Assembly: GCA_020723305.1 (NCBI GenBank)
Contig: DYJC01000003.1
Location: forward strand, 334,418-398,417
Direction: 5' to 3'
Length of the DNA: 64,000 nucleotides
From: Desulfosudis oleivorans
GTDB lineage: Bacteria; Desulfobacterota; Desulfobacteria; Desulfobacterales; SURF-7
Each line of letters opens with the position of its first letter. Within the stretch, counting starts at the first letter, position 1. The notes below the pieces were generated by a model. The model was not told the DNA's origin and made no database searches. It saw nothing but the letters and a program-made list of their open reading frames with translations. The position numbers and the translations under genes are program-made. Shown piece after piece: positions 44,332 to 56,684 of this stretch.

Positions 44332-44526
44332 TTTTTCCCCTAAATATAAAATTCATTAATCAAGCAAAGATATAAAGGCAAGCGTCAATATAACCATGAA
44401 AGACTGGATTGCAAGGGGGGCATCCGGAATTGGAATCATCCTGTTTTTTTGTTTTCAATTGTACAAAAAAAGCATATAAGCTATTCTCTCTTTACGATAT
44501 CAAAGTGGGCAACCAGGGGAAAAAAG

Positions 44527-46098
44527 ATGATAACCTTATTGGATTATGGGGCCGGGAATGTCCGGAGCGTGGTGAATGCAATCAAACGGCTGGGCGAAAC
44601 CGTAAAACCGGTTTCCTGTGCAGAGGATATTCAACGAGCTGAAAAACTGGTGTTTCCCGGGGTCGGAAATTTCAGAAGCATGATGCAGATCCTGGACAGG
44701 AAAAAATATATCCAGGCTTTAATCGACTATCTTGCGGCAGACCGGCCTTTTCTGGGCATATGCCTGGGATTGCAGGCCTTGTTTGATTCAAGTCAGGAGG
44801 CCGAAGGCGTTCAGGGGCTGGGGATCATTCCGGGAATTGTGAAACGGTTTACAGTGGATCTTTCCGTACCCCATATCGGATGGAATGGGATCAATATCAA
44901 ACAGCCATCCCGGATTTTTCAGGGTCTTCGGGGGGATGAACGCTTTTATTTTGTTCATTCCTATCACGTTGTTCCGGATGACAATGCCGTGGTGTTGACG
45001 ACAACCAACTATGGTTATGAATTTGTCAGTGCTGTTCAGAAAGGAAACATTATCGCAACCCAGTTTCATCCGGAAAAAAGCGGTTCAGCAGGGCTTTCTG
45101 TATTGAAAAACTTCCTGAACCTGGAGATTCCGGCTTTATTTCCTGAAAAGGTTACCCGGAAAACAACGCTTTCCAAAAGGATTATCGCCTGTCTGGATGT
45201 CCGTTCCAATGATCAGGGAGACCTGGTGGTCACCAAAGGAGATCAGTATGATGTAAGAGAAGACGGTGATGTCCGGAATCTGGGCAAGCCGGTTGAACTG
45301 GCAAAGCGGTATTATGAGGAAGGGGCGGATGAGGTCACTTTTTTGAATATCACCGGTTTTCGGGATTTTCCCCTCGAGGATATGCCGATGTTGGAGGTTT
45401 TGCAGAAAACATCGGAAAAGGTATTCGTACCCCTTACGATTGGTGGCGGAATCCGTGATTATACGGACAAGGATGGCCGGGTCTATACCGCTCTTGAGGT
45501 TGCATCGGAATATTTTCGATCCGGAGCAGATAAAATTTCCATCGGCAGTGACGCCGTCCTCATTGTCGAGGCGTATTTGAAAACCGGAAAGAAAACCGGA
45601 TCCAGTGCAATCGAAGAGATTGCAAGGGTTTATGGCAACCAGGCGGTTGTTATTTCCATTGATCCCAGGCGGGTATATGTTAACTCCCCTGATGAAGCTG
45701 CACATCCTGTCGTTAAAACCCGGTTTCCCGGTCCGGACGGGGAACAATATTGCTGGTATCAATGCACGATCAAAGGCGGAAGGGAAGGACGGGATCTGGA
45801 TGCGTCAACGCTTGCCAGGGTTTGTGAAGAGCTTGGAGCAGGGGAGATATTGCTGAATTGTATTGATCAGGATGGCACCAACTCCGGATTTGACATTGAG
45901 CTGATCAATCTGGTTCGCAATACCGTAACCATTCCGGTAATTGCATCCAGCGGAGCTGGATGTGTTGAACATTTTTATGAGGTATTTTCCCAGACCAAAG
46001 CAGAGGCCGCGCTTGCAGCAGGAATTTTTCATCGACGAGAGGTTCCGGTCGGGGATGTAAAGAGATACCTGAACGGGAAAGTGGATGTCAGGATGTAG
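44527..46098 (+). CDS. hisHF: Bifunctional imidazole glycerol phosphate synthase HisHF (fused)
   Basis: 523 residues from ATG 44527 (AGGGG seven bases upstream; the frame is open further upstream but without a site). Residues 1-~205: class I glutamine amidotransferase (Cys79 in GICLGLQALF, His in QFHPEKSG). Residues ~218-523: HisF cyclase barrel starting RIIACLDVRSND. The barrel has the insertions (TDKDGRVYTALEVASEYFRS, VYVNSPDEAAHPVVK, GEQYCWYQCTIKGGREGRDL) of yeast HIS7 and plant HISN4 rather than of ordinary bacterial HisF. It converts PRFAR and glutamine to IGP and AICAR in histidine synthesis. No other his gene is adjacent. Confidence 0.95.
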   Translation: MITLLDYGAGNVRSVVNAIKRLGETVKPVSCAEDIQRAEKLVFPGVGNFRSMMQILDRKKYIQALIDYLAADRPFLGICLGLQALFDSSQEAEGVQGLGIIPGIVKRFTVDLSVPHIGWNGINIKQPSRIFQGLRGDERFYFVHSYHVVPDDNAVVLTTTNYGYEFVSAVQKGNIIATQFHPEKSGSAGLSVLKNFLNLEIPALFPEKVTRKTTLSKRIIACLDVRSNDQGDLVVTKGDQYDVREDGDVRNLGKPVELAKRYYEEGADEVTFLNITGFRDFPLEDMPMLEVLQKTSEKVFVPLTIGGGIRDYTDKDGRVYTALEVASEYFRSGADKISIGSDAVLIVEAYLKTGKKTGSSAIEEIARVYGNQAVVISIDPRRVYVNSPDEAAHPVVKTRFPGPDGEQYCWYQCTIKGGREGRDLDASTLARVCEELGAGEILLNCIDQDGTNSGFDIELINLVRNTVTIPVIASSGAGCVEHFYEVFSQTKAEAALAAGIFHRREVPVGDVKRYLNGKVDVRM

Positions 46099-48285: not shown

Positions 48286-48639
48286 TTATTGTTTGCCACA
48301 TGTTTCCAGGACAAGCCATATGGAAATGATCTGATTTGAATCGTTTTTCATATATCCCACAAGGCTGTTCGGCGTGATCAGTTCAACCGGCATGTTATTG
48401 CCTTCCGGAGTATGATAGGTCAGTTCCGGTGACAGGGGTTTCTGGGAATCATCAATAACGACTTTCTCTTTATCAATGCTCATCAAGCAGCCATACCCGT
48501 CAAACCCATCCGGGTAATGGGGAGGCAGTTTCCATTCTCCCTTTTTCCCGCGGGCATCGCAGATACCCGCTGTAACCAGGAACGCACAGGCAATGATCAT
48601 GAGTATTGAAATGTTTCGTTTTATCTGTTGGTGTTTCAT
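48286..48639 (-). CDS. Small exported protein of the pilus operon
   Basis: 117 residues from ATG 48639, where AAGGAGG lies 8 bases upstream; the longer open frame to 48813 overlaps pilY1 and has no site. Signal peptide (MKHQQIKRNISILMIIACAF, cleavage near CDA) and then a compact beta domain (YGCLMSIDKEKVVIDDSQKP..NSLVGYMKNDSNQIISIWLV). Not recognised by name; this type of small beta-barrel protein often closes PilY1 operons in related bacteria (recalled, not searched). Last gene of the operon and 91 bases after pilY1. Confidence 0.75.
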   Translation of the reverse strand: MKHQQIKRNISILMIIACAFLVTAGICDARGKKGEWKLPPHYPDGFDGYGCLMSIDKEKVVIDDSQKPLSPELTYHTPEGNNMPVELITPNSLVGYMKNDSNQIISIWLVLETCGKQ

Positions 48640-48678: not shown

Positions 48679-48715
48679 CTTCCCTGCAAAAAGTTTGTTT
48701 TTTTTTGCAGGGAAG
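48679..48715 (-). promoter_or_regulatory. Stem-loop between pilY1 and the last pilus gene
   Basis: Perfect 14-base stem (CTTCCCTGCAAAAA / TTTTTGCAGGGAAG) with a 9-base loop in the 91-base gap. It lacks a following T-run on the minus strand, so an mRNA-processing or partial-attenuation role is more likely than full termination. Confidence 0.6.
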
Positions 48716-48730
48716 TTCTGATTCATATTG

Positions 48731-51700
48731 TTATTGTTGTTTTTCAAACCAATACCGGATACCAAAAGTCGGGCCTTTTTCCAATAATGTTGTGATATTC
48801 TGGGTTGCTGCATTGGCTGTGGAAGAACTCATGATTTTCAATTCTCCTTCCGGCAGGCTCGCAATGGCCGGAGACATCAGCCTTCCAGCTTTTTTGATTC
48901 TGGATGGTGCGACAATCTTATAATCGTCTGGATTGGCATTATGCGCTGCGACCGAACCTCTGGCTGTGGTTGAATCCGGAGCTGTGGAATCAAAGATTAG
49001 GTAATCCCCTTCACTGACCAGGTTGCCATCCGTGTCATATTCCGGTTTATCAAATGTACCGTTTTCATCGATATCCCATGGCGATTCATCCAATCTGGCG
49101 CCGGAAGCTGCATTGATTTCGTTGATGACCGACTCGCCACTAGCGCTGCATGGGGTAATATCGGGAATATAAGAAATTACAATGGCATTGCCACCCCGTA
49201 CAAGGGGATCGGTGACAACCCGTTCACCGGAGATCGGAAGATCAAAATACCAGCCCACATGATGGGTCGGGTTGGGTTTATAGTCGTCTGCTGTGATCGG
49301 CGTGATCGGATTGCTAAACATATTATAATTGTTGGTGGTTCCTGCCACATCATCTACCGTATCCACTTCTGTAGCGTAGTCAATCTCATGTTGCGTGGTT
49401 GATCCGACCGTATACGTATCCACGTTGATGATTTCGGTTTGTTCCAAAAGACTTACGGTTGAGGGTTGGTTGCTCAAGGGTGTTGCACCCCGGGTAAAGG
49501 AACCGAGATATTCCTGGTCATCCGAGTCATCTCCATAATCCCAGATCCCGTATATGGTCTGGGCATTGTTATTGGTGGTATCACTGTCGCCGAGGTATTT
49601 ACCGGTGGCAAACAGGATCAGATATCCGTCCTTATTGACCTGTTTCATGCTCATGACATCCGGTCTTGTAGTGATGGGCTGTACGGTCGTTCCATCCGGA
49701 CCAATGGCCTGAAACAACGGTTTGGGTGTTCCGGAAGTATCCTTGTAAGCAGAATCCCAATCAGAAGGACTGGAACTGGTCAGGTCAAATTTCCAGAGAT
49801 TTCCCTGGAGGTCTCCAGCATATACATAATCAACCCTGAAGTCATTGTTAATGTCAATGGCTACCGGTGTGGAAAGGCCATTGCACTTCGGGGAACCGGC
49901 ATTGGCTGCACCGGTATCGATTTTCCGGATCACGGAACCGTCTGCAGGATCAAGAATGAACAGAGCTGCATGGCCAACCTTGCTGTTGTATCCATTTCCA
50001 AAGAGTACGATATAGTTGCCGGAATTGTTGGATCGCAGGATATTGGGTATGCTGTAAGTGTATCCAAGATAATCGCTTTCCGAATAGGTTGCTGTTCCTC
50101 CGGATGTATAGGCTGCATTTCCGGTTGAACCGTCCAGACTGAATGATCCGGCATCGATGACGGTAATGACCCATTGTCCATTGGCTGCCGTGTTTCCAAG
50201 CACACCTGAGATCTCGATGGCATCATCGGTTGAAAAACCATGGGATGCGGCAGAAATCACAATCGGGCTGGTGTTGGTTGCATTGGTGATGGTTTTGGTG
50301 ATGACGCTTGTGCTTGAATCCGGGTATTCCCACAGCACTTTTCCAGCCAGAGTGGTTTCATCCGTAATGGTAGGCGCATGATTTGGATCATCCGGATCCG
50401 GTGCGGAAACGTTCAGGGCATAATATCCCTTGCCGCCGCCTCCAAGACCACCGACCAGCAGGGTTGTAATCCGGGTTGCACCTACCAGAAAATCCACATC
50501 CGTTACTTTGGGTGTAAGATCAACATAATATTCATGCGAGTATGTGGTACTTGTCAGCTTGTAAAGGTTTTCAAACACCAGATTGGGAACATAGGCAAAG
50601 TATTCTGTTCCGCCTGCGATTCCGTTGGTTGTATCATCTTCTGCGTAAAGAGCGTGCAGCATTCCGTCATTTCCGCCAACATACAGGATTCCATGCTTGT
50701 AGGAAGGGGATGAATGAACAATATCACCGAGATTGTAAATGCGATCCCGGAAGGTTCCGCCACCTTCGACCTCATTGGTATGATCGCCCCGGATATAATT
50801 GAGGGTATTCTGGGCAACGGTTGCATTTGCATTCAGCATGGTTTTCATCGCTGCGGGAAGACTGGCGTACCGGAACGGGATTCCGGATGAGCCGTTGTAA
50901 GTGCTGATGATTCGCCCTGTATCCCAGTTTTGACTCTGCATCTCATCACGGGCCTGCCAGAATGGGTTGCCGGTGTCCACTACAGCGGTTAAGGTGTTGA
51001 TTCCAAAGGATTGAACATTGCCGGACCAGTTTTCACTGTCATAACTGGACTGGAAGATCCGAAGGTTTGTGCTGACCTCTTCATACAACTCATCACCGTT
51101 TACGGAAACCGATGAGGCTGATCCGATCCTGAGTTCAACGTCTTCCAGGATTTCCAGCAAAGAATCGATCAACTCATCCGGATTGGAGGCACTCAGGAAC
51201 AGACCGCGGCCGTTAAATGCTGCATGCATGAGATCGTCAATTTTTTCCTGGTCTCCGTTGGTTGGATTGGGCCAGGTTGGATAAACCGGATTAGCCGGGT
51301 CCAGAGGGTCGTTATAATCATAGTCAAAGTCTGCCGGGTTTTCCGCTCTGGAAACCAGGTTTCCTCTAACCCCGAAAGATACCCCGTAGGTGACCATGTG
51401 CTGGTGAGTGGCTGAATCCATCTCATTGCCCTGGATGCTGTTGTCCAGGCCATTGCAAAGGTCTTCCTTGTAAAATTTCATAGCCACATCCGCAAGGGTA
51501 TTGGAATAGGCGTCTTCATAGGGTACACCGGCATAGGTTGGTGTCAGACTGTCTGCTATGTCCTGGTTTCCCACACTGGGACTGCCTCCATTATAATATC
51601 CATCTGTCATGGCAATGGCAAATGCCTGCTGGCATGCACCGCCATCTGCTGCAGGGGCAAATGGCGAATCATTTCCGGCACTGCCGTTCAGCTTGAGGTT

Positions 51701-54439
51701 GTCATCCTGATCATAATACCGTCCAACATCCCTAAGGCCGGTCGTTAATGGGGTTCCCTGTGCGCTGATATTCAGGTTGTAGAGCAGGTTCAGCAGAGTG
51801 GATGTCTCATCCACGCCGCCAGCCTTGATACCCAGAACCGGCTGCTGGATCTTGTGGTTAATGGTGTTGATGCCCACGTACACCCCCTGCATCTGGGAGA
51901 TGGTTCTGGAAATCGCGGCCGTAGCGGTCAGTTCCCGTTTCCGGTAAAAGGAATACCAGTTTGCAAAATTCTGACGTTCCTGAACATATGTTCTGCTGGT
52001 GGCTACATCAGCAGGAGGAGAACCAGCCACAAGATTGAGTTCCCCGGGTTCCACGACCCCGGCTGTTCCGGTTACCAGTTCATTGATTGCATAGTATTTG
52101 ATTGTGCTGGTACTGCCATCCAGTATTACCAGATAGGGTTTGTTTTCGGATTCCGACCAGACATAGTAATGAGCATTTTTAATGGTGATGGTTGTGGTGG
52201 CCGCAGGTACCAGCCTGATGGCATCGGCGACAGCCACCGTATTGTTTACTGCACTCTGGGTGTGGGAAAGAGCGATAAAAGAGGCGGCATCCAGGGTGAA
52301 TGCTCCGGCTCCAAGCTGCCGCCAGGTTCCTCCATTTATGGTCTGATCAACTATAAACGGTGTCAACCCGCCTGCATGTTTGACTACATAATTGACAGCA
52401 TTGGAACGGTCTGCTCCCGATACCCATCTGGCATAGATGGTATAGCTGCCGGAAAGGTTGGGTACCCAGGCTGCTGCATAAGTAGGATAGGTGCCGGTTG
52501 TATCCAGAGGCGTCCAGTAATAATCATCATCATAGGCATTTGAATTTGAGGCAGTTTCCCAATGATTACCTGTGGGTATGAACTGGACGGCATCGGCAAC
52601 CGCCCGGTCGGTGCTGCTGGTCCGGTTATGGCTCATGGTTACGGTTCCGGAGCCCGCCAGTATGGGAATATTCGTGGCGATTAGTATCCATTCGCCTCCA
52701 TTATTCGTCTGATCAACGGTTTCAGTGGTTGTTACGGAACCACCTTGATCAACCGTATAGGTTACTGCTGTCGAGTTGTTACTGTCCGCATGCCACCTTG
52801 CATACACATCATATGTTCCGGCTGCCAGTGCCGGCGCCCAGGTTGTGATATATTGGCCATTGACGTTGGTGTAACGGTAGGTGCTGTTCCAGGCCTCTGT
52901 AGAATATTCTCCGAGCCTCATAGCGCCGGATGACGGTTGCTGTACGATGGCAAATCTTGTATCCTCGTTATCAATCGTAATGGGTTCATTGTTGGGTGTC
53001 TTGGTGAACTGGGCTATATTCTTATCATCAATGACGACCGCCCCGGTGTCTATGGTGTCGAAAGTGTTATCCAGGTTTAAGGTGTTCCCTGCAATTTTGG
53101 GATGGGATTGAGGGGTATTCGGGTCTGCATTGGAAAGGGTGGGCCAGGGAATATAATCCACATCCGGATTATAGTACAGCTTGTTATATCCGGCCCATTG
53201 GGTTTTCCATGTTTTCCGGTCGGTTCCAGTACTCAGGGTCTGGCCACTGTACACATTGTCTCCCGGGTTATCAAAAATATAATAGTGGCTGTAGCCGCCA
53301 ACCCAGAATATCCCGTCATTTTCGGTGGTTATAAACTCCCAGTCCATGCTTCCGGAGTCATCCAGTACAAACATGATATTGGCCGGAGCTGCACGGAATC
53401 GGGTATCCAGGGGTACATCACTGATGTCTGTGCACAAATAGGCCGGTACCTGAAAGGTAACCTCAATGGAGTGATCGGCAGATACGCCGGAGAAGGTATA
53501 ACTGGATATTGGACCCACGGAAACCCCGTCCACCTTGACATCGTAGATCACGTTTCCGGGACTGGGGGTCATGGTAAAGGAGGGTGAGTCAAAACCATCG
53601 GTGACTGTGACGGTTCCGGCCGGAGAGATTGTACCGCCAGTGCCTCCGGTCACGCCGGCAGTGATGGACCAGGTCAGGGTGCTGACGAATTCGACATGAA
53701 GAGTATAAGCGCCGGTGCTGTTGTTGCCGTTTTCCTCCACAGAGTAATAGTAGGTTCCGGCAGTGACATCTCTCTGAATTCGAAAATTCCTATTGCCGGA
53801 GCTGATATCATTATGTTCTACTACTTGATTACATGAAGTATTGTAGTACCGGCCACGAGTATCTGTGGTTCCGGTTGTGTATACCGTAAGTTGACCCTGC
53901 TGAGGACTGGGTATAATGATTTTAAAATAATCTAAATCTCCATTTGTTTCGATATTTCCTGCAGTGACCGATGTTCTTGCCACCTCTGTTGAATTTGTAC
54001 AGTTGTTTCCATGATCATCACTGGTGAAAGCCACAACCAGGGTGTAGTTGCCGGTTCCAGTGCTAGTGCTATGTTCCACATTGATATAATACGTTCCTGC
54101 TGTATTGGTATAATAGGATATCTGAAAATTCCTGTTGCCTCCTGAAATATTATCATGTTCAGCCAGTTTGGCGCAGCTTGCGTCCCGAAGATAACCATAG
54201 GTATTTGTACTTCCGGTTGTATAAACGGTTAGCATACCTCTGCCCGGAACATTGATCGCATAATACTTTGTTGTACCGGCAGGAGATATTGAGCCCGCGG
54301 TTGAGCTGGGTACAGCCAGAGTGGTTGTTGAGGAGCAGGCTATCCCACCTCTCTCATCCCGTGCGTGTGCATTGGGGGAAAGAAGGCATACCATCAAACA
54401 CACTGTGATTATCGTTGAAAAAATATATTTACGTTTCAT
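48731..54439 (-). CDS. pilY1: Mosaic PilY1-type pilus tip adhesin
   Basis: 1902 residues. Start placed at ATG 54439 (GGAGG seven bases away; ATG 54445 is too close). Signal peptide (~1-26), two PPC-like modules (~35-255), a Gly-rich beta repeat (~260-335) and a von Willebrand A domain with MIDAS (NIMFVLDDSGSMDWE, ~355). Two golvesin-like modules (TYDVYARWH ~510-615; SYTIYARWV ~625-745) follow. The conserved PilY1 propeller (~1225-1560) has a calcium loop (DINNDFRVDYVYAGDLQGN) and an inserted FCCH-like module (ISGVLGNTAANGQW..AAYTSGG, ~1380-1450). PilY1 sits at type IV pilus tips and controls assembly, adhesion and surface sensing. Confidence 0.92.
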   Translation of the reverse strand: MKRKYIFSTIITVCLMVCLLSPNAHARDERGGIACSSTTTLAVPSSTAGSISPAGTTKYYAINVPGRGMLTVYTTGSTNTYGYLRDASCAKLAEHDNISGGNRNFQISYYTNTAGTYYINVEHSTSTGTGNYTLVVAFTSDDHGNNCTNSTEVARTSVTAGNIETNGDLDYFKIIIPSPQQGQLTVYTTGTTDTRGRYYNTSCNQVVEHNDISSGNRNFRIQRDVTAGTYYYSVEENGNNSTGAYTLHVEFVSTLTWSITAGVTGGTGGTISPAGTVTVTDGFDSPSFTMTPSPGNVIYDVKVDGVSVGPISSYTFSGVSADHSIEVTFQVPAYLCTDISDVPLDTRFRAAPANIMFVLDDSGSMDWEFITTENDGIFWVGGYSHYYIFDNPGDNVYSGQTLSTGTDRKTWKTQWAGYNKLYYNPDVDYIPWPTLSNADPNTPQSHPKIAGNTLNLDNTFDTIDTGAVVIDDKNIAQFTKTPNNEPITIDNEDTRFAIVQQPSSGAMRLGEYSTEAWNSTYRYTNVNGQYITTWAPALAAGTYDVYARWHADSNNSTAVTYTVDQGGSVTTTETVDQTNNGGEWILIATNIPILAGSGTVTMSHNRTSSTDRAVADAVQFIPTGNHWETASNSNAYDDDYYWTPLDTTGTYPTYAAAWVPNLSGSYTIYARWVSGADRSNAVNYVVKHAGGLTPFIVDQTINGGTWRQLGAGAFTLDAASFIALSHTQSAVNNTVAVADAIRLVPAATTTITIKNAHYYVWSESENKPYLVILDGSTSTIKYYAINELVTGTAGVVEPGELNLVAGSPPADVATSRTYVQERQNFANWYSFYRKRELTATAAISRTISQMQGVYVGINTINHKIQQPVLGIKAGGVDETSTLLNLLYNLNISAQGTPLTTGLRDVGRYYDQDDNLKLNGSAGNDSPFAPAADGGACQQAFAIAMTDGYYNGGSPSVGNQDIADSLTPTYAGVPYEDAYSNTLADVAMKFYKEDLCNGLDNSIQGNEMDSATHQHMVTYGVSFGVRGNLVSRAENPADFDYDYNDPLDPANPVYPTWPNPTNGDQEKIDDLMHAAFNGRGLFLSASNPDELIDSLLEILEDVELRIGSASSVSVNGDELYEEVSTNLRIFQSSYDSENWSGNVQSFGINTLTAVVDTGNPFWQARDEMQSQNWDTGRIISTYNGSSGIPFRYASLPAAMKTMLNANATVAQNTLNYIRGDHTNEVEGGGTFRDRIYNLGDIVHSSPSYKHGILYVGGNDGMLHALYAEDDTTNGIAGGTEYFAYVPNLVFENLYKLTSTTYSHEYYVDLTPKVTDVDFLVGATRITTLLVGGLGGGGKGYYALNVSAPDPDDPNHAPTITDETTLAGKVLWEYPDSSTSVITKTITNATNTSPIVISAASHGFSTDDAIEISGVLGNTAANGQWVITVIDAGSFSLDGSTGNAAYTSGGTATYSESDYLGYTYSIPNILRSNNSGNYIVLFGNGYNSKVGHAALFILDPADGSVIRKIDTGAANAGSPKCNGLSTPVAIDINNDFRVDYVYAGDLQGNLWKFDLTSSSPSDWDSAYKDTSGTPKPLFQAIGPDGTTVQPITTRPDVMSMKQVNKDGYLILFATGKYLGDSDTTNNNAQTIYGIWDYGDDSDDQEYLGSFTRGATPLSNQPSTVSLLEQTEIINVDTYTVGSTTQHEIDYATEVDTVDDVAGTTNNYNMFSNPITPITADDYKPNPTHHVGWYFDLPISGERVVTDPLVRGGNAIVISYIPDITPCSASGESVINEINAASGARLDESPWDIDENGTFDKPEYDTDGNLVSEGDYLIFDSTAPDSTTARGSVAAHNANPDDYKIVAPSRIKKAGRLMSPAIASLPEGELKIMSSSTANAATQNITTLLEKGPTFGIRYWFEKQQ

Positions 54440-54485
54440 TGTCATACCTCCGGTATTAACCGTTGCTGTTCATATTTCAAAAAAC

Positions 54486-54989
54486 CTAAAAAGGTTTGGT
54501 GTAGCCGATGCCCACGATAACATCCCCTCCGCGATTGTTCCACTCCCTTCCATAGACAACGTAGGAATGCACCTGGGCTTCTCCCATGGCCATGGAACTT
54601 CCGGCCTGTATCCCCCGTGTAACCGCAAGATATTGCAGATCGGTGTTCGGTGTCGTCACTGTAATCAGGGAATCCTGGCCATTGGTTCCCCATAAGGCTT
54701 CTGCCGGCAGCTCATTATCAGCCGAAACCGTACCAATGGGAAGCAGATAGATTGGAGGAAAAGAGTCAAGGTTGATCTCATCTTCCAGAAGTTGTATCGC
54801 CTCAATGGCGGCTGCCTCTGCACGGAAAAAGCTTGTTTTGTAACCGATTTCATTTCGGACAATCTGGGACTCGGTGATGGACGTATTGCTGGCGGAAATC
54901 CCGATCACGGTGAGTACTGCCATCAACAGCAGGACAATCGCAATCAGGGAACCTTCTTCGTTTTTAATTATGGGCAATCTGTTTTTCAT
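54486..54989 (-). CDS. pilX: PilX-like minor pilin
   Basis: 167 residues from ATG 54989 (TAAAGGG eight bases upstream; an ATG at 55007 is less well placed). N-terminal hydrophobic helix after IIKNEEGSLIAIVLLLMAVLTVIGISAS with the early Glu/Gly seen in PilX (NEEGSLI), then TSITESQIVRNEIGYKTSFFRAEAAAIEAI, the conserved PilX segment. A minor pilin of the priming complex with PilV, PilW, FimT and PilY1. Order and spacing match the Pseudomonas-type minor pilin operon. Confidence 0.85.
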   Translation of the reverse strand: MKNRLPIIKNEEGSLIAIVLLLMAVLTVIGISASNTSITESQIVRNEIGYKTSFFRAEAAAIEAIQLLEDEINLDSFPPIYLLPIGTVSADNELPAEALWGTNGQDSLITVTTPNTDLQYLAVTRGIQAGSSMAMGEAQVHSYVVYGREWNNRGGDVIVGIGYTKPF

Positions 54990-55026
54990 AATTTTTCCCT
55001 TTACCATAATACTGGGTTTTTATGAG

Positions 55027-55464
55027 TTATAAATTCATATCTGCCTTGACGGATGTTAATGTAATTGTCTGTCTTCCGCCTCCGGAAGAAGGATCCCAGG
55101 AGACATTTACCGTTATGGTCACGGTATTCGGTGCCGGGGTTGCGGCTGCCGGAGCCGTAACGGACCAGTCAATATCGAACCGGCCTCCTGAACCTTGATC
55201 GGGTCTAGTTCCCGGGTTGGGAACAACCGCCGGGTCGTTCAGATTTGTATAGGAATAGGTCATGAGCTCTTCCAGTACTGCGGTTCCAAGGCTGATCGCT
55301 TCTGTTGTATCTCCTGATTTTCTTGCATTGGAATTGGACGAGAGCTGCATGGAAATAATGGCAAGGATTCCAATGGACAAGATTCCAAGGGCGATCATTG
55401 CCTCAATAATCGAATACCCATGGTTATTTTTTTCCTGGATTTGGATGGTTTGCTTCATGTGCAT
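55027..55464 (-). CDS. pilV: PilV-like minor pilin
   Basis: 145 residues with AAGGAG six bases before ATG. Type III prepilin leader with cleavage at G-YSIIEAMIALGILSIGILAI (Glu+5 kept), then LSSNSNARKSGDTTEAISLGTAVLEELM, the PilV signature. The C-terminal half is a beta domain with a Gly-rich loop. Processed by prepilin peptidase and part of the minor pilin priming complex. Confidence 0.88.
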   Translation of the reverse strand: MHMKQTIQIQEKNNHGYSIIEAMIALGILSIGILAIISMQLSSNSNARKSGDTTEAISLGTAVLEELMTYSYTNLNDPAVVPNPGTRPDQGSGGRFDIDWSVTAPAAATPAPNTVTITVNVSWDPSSGGGRQTITLTSVKADMNL

Positions 55465-55483: not shown

Positions 55484-56149
55484 TTAAAGATTCAGGTTCC
55501 GGCAATACACCCTTGTTTGTATGGTCCGGCTGATCGTGCCATATTTTCCGGCTGCTTCGGAGAGTGTTATGCTGATATTGACGGAGCGGATGTTTTCCAG
55601 GCTTGCAGCCGGTATAGGGTTACCTGCAATCTGACCGTTATTGTTATCAAAATAGGTAAAAACAAGAGCGGAAATATTTCCAAGAATATTCTGATTCCCG
55701 GCCAGATTGGTCCTGGTAAGCGTTCTTGAAACGGCATTGTATGTGTATGTAATCTGCTCATCCGGACTGGTTACCGTTTCATCAACGCCGGCAGTGCTCA
55801 GGTCATCTACTGCAACCAGACCGTTAAAATCGTTATCCGAGGTAAAGGTGAAGGCTGTGCTGCTTGCAGCCGTAAATCCTACACCAGAGGTCAGCTCCCG
55901 CGGATTCAATCCTGCGTTACGGATATCCTGTTCCATAAAGGAAATTCCAGCACGGATATCCTGTTGAATATCTGTAGAAACGGTTTGAATGGTATTGGTT
56001 CGGGTATAATTGGCAAATATGGTGAATGCTGCCGCAAGGATAAAAGATGAAATGACCATGGTAATCAGAATTTCAACCAGCGTGAAACCATTCTGGCTTT
56101 TTGCAGCTTCGGCTTGTTTGCGATATTGAGTCATATGATGCTTTTTCAT
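55484..56149 (-). CDS. pilW: PilW-like minor pilin
   Basis: 221 residues. Prepilin leader QNG-FTLVEILITMVISSFILAAAF with Glu+5, and RTNTIQTVSTDIQQDIRAGISFMEQDIRNAGL, a PilW hallmark. A longer C-terminal beta region follows, ending in RTIQTRVYCRNLNL. Located between FimT and PilV as in other minor pilin operons. The leader is unusually long and basic (KKHHMTQYRKQAEAAKSQNG). Confidence 0.88.
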   Translation of the reverse strand: MKKHHMTQYRKQAEAAKSQNGFTLVEILITMVISSFILAAAFTIFANYTRTNTIQTVSTDIQQDIRAGISFMEQDIRNAGLNPRELTSGVGFTAASSTAFTFTSDNDFNGLVAVDDLSTAGVDETVTSPDEQITYTYNAVSRTLTRTNLAGNQNILGNISALVFTYFDNNNGQIAGNPIPAASLENIRSVNISITLSEAAGKYGTISRTIQTRVYCRNLNL

Positions 56150-56172: not shown

Positions 56173-56595
56173 CTAATTGATTCGAACTGTTCCGATCATG
56201 TTCACAACTACCTGAGTGTTTCCAGTATCGTTGGAAAGGGTTACAATTCCTGAGTTGCTGGAGCGTCCTCTGGAGTCAAATGTGGTTGAATCTCCGGCAA
56301 GGGTGGTTCCATTGATGGATGTATTGGTTAAATTTCTGGATAGAATGATGTCAACACCGTTTGTGATTGAATAGCTGTTGTTTCCTGTATTGAATGAAAT
56401 CGTCATATTGGTGTTATCCCGGATGGCCCTGGATCTGGCGAGTTCAAAATCGGCCTTAAGGGTTCTGGTGTCGCCGCCAAGAGATGATTTCGCACGCCAT
56501 GAGATAATGTTCGGTACAGCAACTGCAGCCAGTATGGCCATAATTACGATCACAATGACCATTTCTATTATAGTGAAACCCTTGTTGTTTTTCAT
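56173..56595 (-). CDS. fimT: FimT/GspH-like minor pilin
   Basis: 140 residues from ATG 56595 (CAGGAAAT site; a longer frame starts at 56619). Leader KNNKG-FTIIEMVIVIVIMAILAAVAVPNI with Glu+5 and the GspH/FimT continuation WRAKSSLGGDTRTLKADFELARSRAIRDN. A C-terminal beta domain completes it. First gene of the minor pilin operon, ~80 bases downstream of the predicted transcription start of the sigma-54 promoter. Confidence 0.88.
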   Translation of the reverse strand: MKNNKGFTIIEMVIVIVIMAILAAVAVPNIISWRAKSSLGGDTRTLKADFELARSRAIRDNTNMTISFNTGNNSYSITNGVDIILSRNLTNTSINGTTLAGDSTTFDSRGRSSNSGIVTLSNDTGNTQVVVNMIGTVRIN

Positions 56596-56684
56596 TATTT
56601 CCTGTCTCCCGTCATTCAAACTTTATTTGATACTCTTTATCATCAAGCGCTTAAATCAGAAAAATATGGTTTGCGGGTATTCAA

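Follow-up and report, generated by a model that had tools for sequence, protein, structure and literature searches.

A PilY1 protein encoded in a 64,000-nucleotide stretch of DNA from Desulfosudis oleivorans (hereafter the window) carries added modules in three places: two PPC-like domains in front of its VWA domain, two golvesin modules inside the VWA domain, and one FCCH-like module inside the C-terminal propeller. The module families and insertion sites of this architecture recur among related PilY1s, the modules are under purifying selection, and structure models predict that both the VWA domain and the propeller are intact. Mosaic and modular pilus tips are known; the new part is a pair of recurrent internal insertion sites, one of them in a propeller usually treated as invariant. 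Taking the evidence as a whole, we think it likely that this protein is a type IVa pilus tip adhesin whose modules, added at three places, most probably bind surface polymers. We give about an even chance to a broader reading, in which PilY1s have two fixed sockets (one beside the VWA metal site, the other in one propeller inter-blade loop) that are repeatedly filled with different modules across lineages, including one with homology to modules of phage structural proteins. Swapping inserts within folded domains, the carrier included, would then alter tip specificity, in addition to the fusion of domains in front. To our knowledge, the targets of type IV pilus tips are mostly unknown outside a few pathogens.

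A modular PilY1 in a minor-pilin operon

The pilY1 ORF occupies positions 48731-54439 on the minus strand of the window. A second ATG lies two codons upstream, at 54445; a GGAGG sequence precedes the ATG at 54439 by 7 nt but the upper ATG by 1 nt, and we therefore prefer the start at 54439, which the initial annotation had also used. Counted from this ATG with its Shine-Dalgarno sequence the protein has 1902 amino acids, while the residue numbers given below begin at the upper ATG (preferred start +2). By eye, the N-terminus (MKRKYIF...AHA, 54359-54439, minus strand) resembles a signal peptide.

Upstream and co-directional with pilY1 lie genes for four minor pilins on the minus strand, forming a minor-pilin operon: a FimT/GspH-like protein (56173-56619; GspH E 5.5e-10), a PilW-like protein (55484-56149; an N_methyl match, named from its operon position), a PilV-like protein (55027-55464; TIGR02523 E 4.3e-9, under its cut-off) and a PilX-like protein (54486-55007; PilX_N E 8.2e-7). 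Type IV pilus machinery is present in the genome, where matches above the cut-offs put PilT at 5 sites and PilQ at 1, and the ORF is a real PilY1 in its operon. The nearest named genome, the Desulfobacteraceae metagenome-assembled genome (MAG) SURF_7 (L034), encodes a PilY1 with 80% identity over residues 1-1904 and without architectural difference. Since this MAG comes from a separate study, its identical architecture ruled out an assembly chimera.

Downstream of pilY1 a small secreted protein is encoded at 48286-48639 (minus strand, start picked by eye), for which a Pfam scan that included the upstream extension gave no match. Its divergent relatives adjoin pilY1 in many of the fetched loci (55 rows including the window's own, several regions being counted twice), the search having covered fetched loci only, nearly all of which are pilY1 loci. 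We assume that it may be the counterpart of Pseudomonas PilY2. A 15-pair hairpin at 48679-48715 separates the two genes, and in terminator consensus scans of the surrounding region terminator-like sites were no commoner than in shuffles.

The same genome holds a second PilY1 (L129; G000:C21, 3615-10294, minus strand) in a minor-pilin operon of its own. In this 1390-amino-acid protein Pfam finds the propeller only and no module, and its MIDAS-like stretch DNHSSM deviates from DxSxS. From this second gene, the organism may have two kinds of pilus tip.

Modules in front of and inside folded domains

A Pfam scan of the full-length protein identified the propeller (PF05567, E 1.2e-45), two stretches of Golvesin_C (E 3.6e-28) and an FCCH-like match (E 3.8e-6; its 27.3 bits fall short of the 29.5-bit cut-off). 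The initial annotation had named PPC, VWA, golvesin-like and FCCH-like modules: profiles or predicted structure back the first three, and the FCCH-like assignment lies near the Pfam cut-off, with E1_FCCH (PF16190) rising to 32.9 bits, above the cut-off, in a genome search.

Two PPC-like domains follow the N-terminus, at residues 31-141 (54023-54355, minus strand) and 142-256 (53678-54022, minus strand). PPC gave no match at E<=1 in the full-length scan, while residues 31-141 scanned alone reached 31.4 bits with the PPC profile (PF04151), above its cut-off of 25.9, and 8 of 10 aligned PPC-like stretches match it at E<=0.1. The model of the first domain resembles Tk-SP (3afg, Z 11.3) and that of the second resembles ColG (2o8o, Z 13.3, rmsd 2.2, 103 aligned residues). 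A profile of ten PPC-like stretches (alignment A5) likewise finds PPC and collagen-binding domains of bacterial collagenases (5sv5, E 2.5e-4). The 80 residues from PPC to VWA (residues 257-336; 53438-53677, minus strand) are tentatively Ig-like by eye and conserved in several relatives; profile search lent no support, returning only Big_3_5 at E 0.37.

The VWA domain, for which a Pfam scan of the query gave no match, comes in two parts on the minus strand. The first (52931-53413) contains the MIDAS motif DDSGS (53348-53362) and YYNP, and the second (51116-52198) contains an arm, the first helices with NFANWY, and the MIDAS residues T898 and D948. In a structure model of residues 30-1195 (pLDDT 75.6, pTM 0.56, built on an alignment of 32 rows) the best VWA match is BatB (3ibs; Z 15.7, rmsd 2.4, 179 aligned residues), and this match covers model residues 324-1080, thus reaching across the golvesin pair. 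Each of the MIDAS positions D362, S364, S366, T898 and D948 is either invariant or conserved in at least 90% of rows (alignment A2, 32 rows). An earlier proposal that the usual N-terminal region of PilY1 had been replaced therefore does not hold: the usual VWA of this PilY1 type is complete and modules have been added to it, the PPC pair ahead of the domain and the golvesin pair, whose location the initial annotation did not give, inside it.

The golvesin modules span residues 507-625 (52571-52927, minus strand) and 626-749 (52199-52570, minus strand), and scored 64.1 and 63.2 bits with Golvesin_C (PF25275, cut-off 31.6) in the genome profile search. The model places the first VWA strand at residues 356-361 and the first helices at 820-834 and 837-851, with the golvesin pair between the MIDAS strand and the first VWA helix. 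Because the pTM is 0.56 and residues 494-528, where the insert starts, form the model stretch below pLDDT 50, this position relative to the MIDAS is a statement of topology, not measured geometry. A profile of 16 golvesin modules found one solved structure, a Paenibacillus xanthan lyase (6f2p, E 9.7e-26, chain residues 918-1038), and by this profile similarity the modules are homologous to the C-terminal domain of that enzyme. The available passages on xanthan-degrading enzymes leave xanthan binding by this domain unstated.

The propeller is likewise divided, into a first part (residues 1200-1374; 50324-50848) and a second part with the C-terminus (48734-50068), both on the minus strand. Between VLWEY and LGYT lies the FCCH-like insert, at residues 1375-1459 (50069-50323, minus strand), where the initial annotation had put an extra module at about 1380-1450. 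That annotation had also advised checking whether the insertion preserves the propeller and its calcium loop, and both are predicted to be kept. A model of residues 1195-1904 (pLDDT 83.9, pTM 0.85, 46 rows) fits Pseudomonas aeruginosa PilY1 (3HX6) with Z 27.8, rmsd 2.6 and 423 aligned residues; with Foldseek the TM-score is 0.51 on the model's length and 0.72-0.73 on the target's length. The calcium loop DINNDFRVD (residues 1531-1539; 49829-49855, minus strand) is intact, its D1531 and D1539 being invariant (alignment A1, 46 rows). Within the insert, residues 1385-1454 have a pLDDT of 83-92 in blocks of ten, and the first ten residues 75. It is flanked by the strand VLWEY (1370-1374) and by LGYTY (1460), and the strand order of the model indicates that the site is an inter-blade connection. 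A profile of four FCCH-like inserts (A4) matches E1 enzymes (2lzj, 8e-5) and a 'structural protein' (26dk, 0.0018); its BURRH matches were dropped, as no single stretch passed alone.

Recurrence, selection and origin of the inserts

To place the architecture among relatives we used loci picked for their resemblance to the query (79 of 184 stretches were kept), so that the counts over 118, 111 and 56 below should not be read as unbiased frequencies. The 138 phmmer hits plus the query gave 118 rows once contained duplicates were removed. Both VWA halves are present in 56 of them (the NF position is approximate in 8), and the propeller-loop alignment holds 111 PilY1s. Alignments A1 (46 rows) and A2 (32 rows) were hand-picked from a list that gave 55 of 109 and 45 of 55 references, with L132 added to A2.

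Spacing across the VWA site is 93-186 residues in 35 of the 56 proteins. Three more have 203-237 residues, with extra sequence of unidentified kind (L081, L063, L064), and the remaining 18 have 232-497 residues, accounted for by golvesin-like modules (n=13, including weak calls at 22 bits in L120 and 18 bits in L121) or PPC-like modules (n=5). The PPC-like modules occur at this site in MAGs titled 'Deltaproteobacteria' and in Lysobacterales. With golvesin in some lineages and PPC in others, one VWA site therefore takes different modules. Both types also occur ahead of the VWA domain, PPC in the query, L034 and L035, and golvesin in L122.

The propeller site has a sharper length distribution: the loop measures 0-32 residues in 105 of 111 PilY1s and 84-90 residues in the other 6, with none between. 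Four of the long loops hold FCCH-like modules (query, L034, L132, L116), and two hold other inserts: that of L035 (10333-10617, plus strand), in which FCCH is undetected, and that of L040 (11620-11904, plus strand), which contains DTNGDG-type repeats. Searches of these two against Pfam and PHROGs gave no useful match (for L040 the sole hit was Cu-binding_MopE, at E 0.34), and a search of the L035 insert against phages gave nothing useful; the count of three insert kinds rests on these null searches and on the detection of FCCH in only 4 proteins. In L037, near the query in the tree, the loop has 5 residues and no insert.

An AU test rejected a single clade for the four FCCH-bearing PilY1s (p 0.0003). 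A single clade was also rejected for the rows with PPC at the VWA site (p 2e-84), and the golvesin-bearing rows gave p 0.018; these two groups were defined by module detection and tested after the tree had been seen. All three tests used a quick tree, from which the fragment L115 was omitted and in which L132, whose VWA domain is cut by a contig end, was added as golvesin-bearing.

Across 96 related genomes, the window's own included, 63 have PilY1. Golvesin is found in 27 and stands in one frame with PilY1 in 19 (17 of these 19 above cut-off), and this design is therefore common in the order. FCCH is rarer, occurring in 6 of the 96 genomes and within a PilY1 frame in 4; these co-occurrences in one frame were paired by hand from contig and frame length. 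In the phylum, the FCCH profile matches 5 of 297 genomes (the window's own, L137-L139 and L140), and the frames of L137-L139, read individually, are not PilY1.

We compared rates of evolution between the query and L034, with bootstrap intervals. Omega is 0.23 (0.16-0.34) for the golvesin modules, 0.26 (0.17-0.38) for PPC and 0.38 (0.21-0.68) for the FCCH-like insert, against 0.11 (0.07-0.15) for the VWA core and 0.12 (0.09-0.17) for the propeller core; the intervals of golvesin and VWA core do not overlap, nor do those of FCCH and propeller core. In this pairwise comparison the modules are maintained by purifying selection, yet evolve faster than the cores that carry them. Such acceleration is what is expected of recognition parts, but relaxed spacers would look similar.

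Searched alone, the FCCH-like insert matches PHROG 584 ('major tail protein', 2e-5). It also matches 19 phage records, with which it shares 37-48% identity and whose annotations name tail, baseplate or stabilisation proteins, an FCCH domain or chitin binding. Papers retrieved in a literature search on the FCCH domain and phage tails dealt, by their titles, with E1, ubiquitin or SUMO. Outside PilY1, the phylum search gave its strongest FCCH-like match in a 293-amino-acid protein (L137; G378:C14, 1006-1887, minus strand), whose module is 56% identical to the query insert over 70 residues. With identities of 37-48% to the phage records and 56% to L137, a recent capture from phage is not established. 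As for exchange between pilY1 genes, the query and L132 are slightly more alike in the insert (62% identical) than in its flanks (56-58%), while three pairs with L116 have no such excess (41-56% in the insert, 53-59% in the flanks). These sequence comparisons do not tell independent insertion from recombination between pilY1 genes for the FCCH carriers. A source in another gene of the same genome was rejected for golvesin and FCCH alike, both profiles matching this ORF only.

The only PHROG match of the L137 protein is weak (virion structural protein, E 0.028). A further FCCH-like module lies in a 557-amino-acid protein of L138 (G239:C20, 3-2712, minus strand) that precedes a reverse transcriptase (PHROG 1423, E 3.3e-47); the 557-amino-acid protein may be what a diversity-generating retroelement varies.

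Proposed function and relation to known pilus tips

In the mechanism that we favor, PilY1 would be the non-pilin adhesin at the presumed tip of a type IVa pilus. The propeller would act as the carrier, docking on the PilX/PilV/PilW/FimT minor-pilin cap by analogy with published PilY1 complexes, and the VWA domain with its MIDAS metal site would be the force-bearing head. Modules would be displayed at the front (two PPC-like), from the loop that joins the MIDAS strand to the first helix (two golvesin) and from one propeller inter-blade loop (FCCH-like). By topology, the golvesin pair would leave the VWA fold next to the metal site. Published modelling, in the sections available, sets PilY1 on top of a FimU-PilW-PilV-PilX cap, its outermost part being the N-terminal domain (PMC13190605). 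On that arrangement the farthest-projecting parts would be the PPC pair and the VWA domain with the golvesin modules inside it, and the carrier would hold the FCCH-like module. The modules most likely bind polymers on the touched surface, with extracellular polysaccharide as a first guess because of the homology of the golvesin modules to the xanthan lyase C-terminal domain. Pilus retraction would then pull on the contact, with the load passing through the VWA domain. A recognition role for the modules is plausible from their binding-type folds and their faster yet purifying evolution, as is the specialised surface target that the initial annotation had suggested for this modular PilY1.

The inserts could instead serve reach or shape, by making the tip longer, shielding the MIDAS or adjusting the yielding of the VWA domain under force, with ligand binding left to the VWA domain itself. 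Their position in loops of folded domains would suit such a role, as would the uniform 84-90 residues of three insert kinds in one propeller loop, as if bulk mattered; the omega of 0.38 for FCCH is also the highest. We nevertheless regard this account as unlikely, since solved structures include binding-domain relatives of golvesin and PPC, and omega is well below 1. More improbable still is a passenger account, in which permissive loops tolerate near-neutral mobile domains that spread by recombination between pilY1 genes or came from phage structural genes. The scatter of FCCH carriers over more than one clade (p 0.0003), the lack of a propeller insert in L037 close to the query, and the related modules in phage structural proteins are what passengers would produce, but the comparison of the query with L034 finds every module open and under purifying selection, and 19 of 96 genomes have golvesin within the PilY1 frame.

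Should modules indeed be exchanged at two fixed sites without disturbing the fold, sequence could be used to infer tip specificity, and the exchange would be testable because near relatives share the scaffold with and without inserts. Surveys that treat the propeller as invariant and consider the N-terminus only would miss part of the diversity.

The query has the propeller fold, the calcium loop and the minor-pilin operon in common with P. aeruginosa PilY1 (3HX6), for which published papers also describe a VWA domain with MIDAS; it differs in its two PPC-like domains in front, its two golvesin domains in VWA and its FCCH-like module in the propeller. A precedent for insertion into the VWA domain is Acinetobacter ComC, a PilY1 whose variants carry insertions inside the VWA scaffold, and a ComC from which residues 166-256 had been deleted failed to restore endothelial-cell adhesion; that insert is a Tyr-rich finger, in contrast to two golvesin domains in the query, and the available portion of the paper makes no mention of a propeller insertion (PMC10374093). 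A 2021 survey counted 68 PilC/PilY1 architectures in InterPro, which with modular pilins such as Streptococcus sanguinis PilB resemble the query in joining a carrier to exchangeable effector modules. The modules are described there as N-terminal to the carrier (PMC8179133), whereas two of the query's three module sites lie within folded domains, and one of these domains is the carrier. The DUF4114-bearing PilY1 of Myxococcus, in the sections available, shares with the query a conserved propeller, a variable N-terminal module and more than one PilY1 operon per genome; its module is different, and the main text uses the words golvesin, PPC and insert 0 times (PMC13190605). PilY1 was also among the expressed adhesins of sulfate reducers living with methane-oxidising archaea, according to the accessible part of a 2023 study (PMC10553843). 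A literature search in which subscription journals were thinly covered returned no report of a domain insertion into the PilY1 propeller and none of golvesin or PPC modules in PilY1, although the dataset of the 2021 survey may list such architectures.

Elsewhere in the window, at 44449-46098 on the plus strand, a single ORF joins HisH (224.7 bits, cut-off 105.4) and HisF (322.7 bits, cut-off 294.55), both above their NCBIfam cut-offs. The HisF part has extra sequence, with 303 residues on 247 profile positions, and we take the arrangement to resemble the eukaryotic HIS7 fusion.
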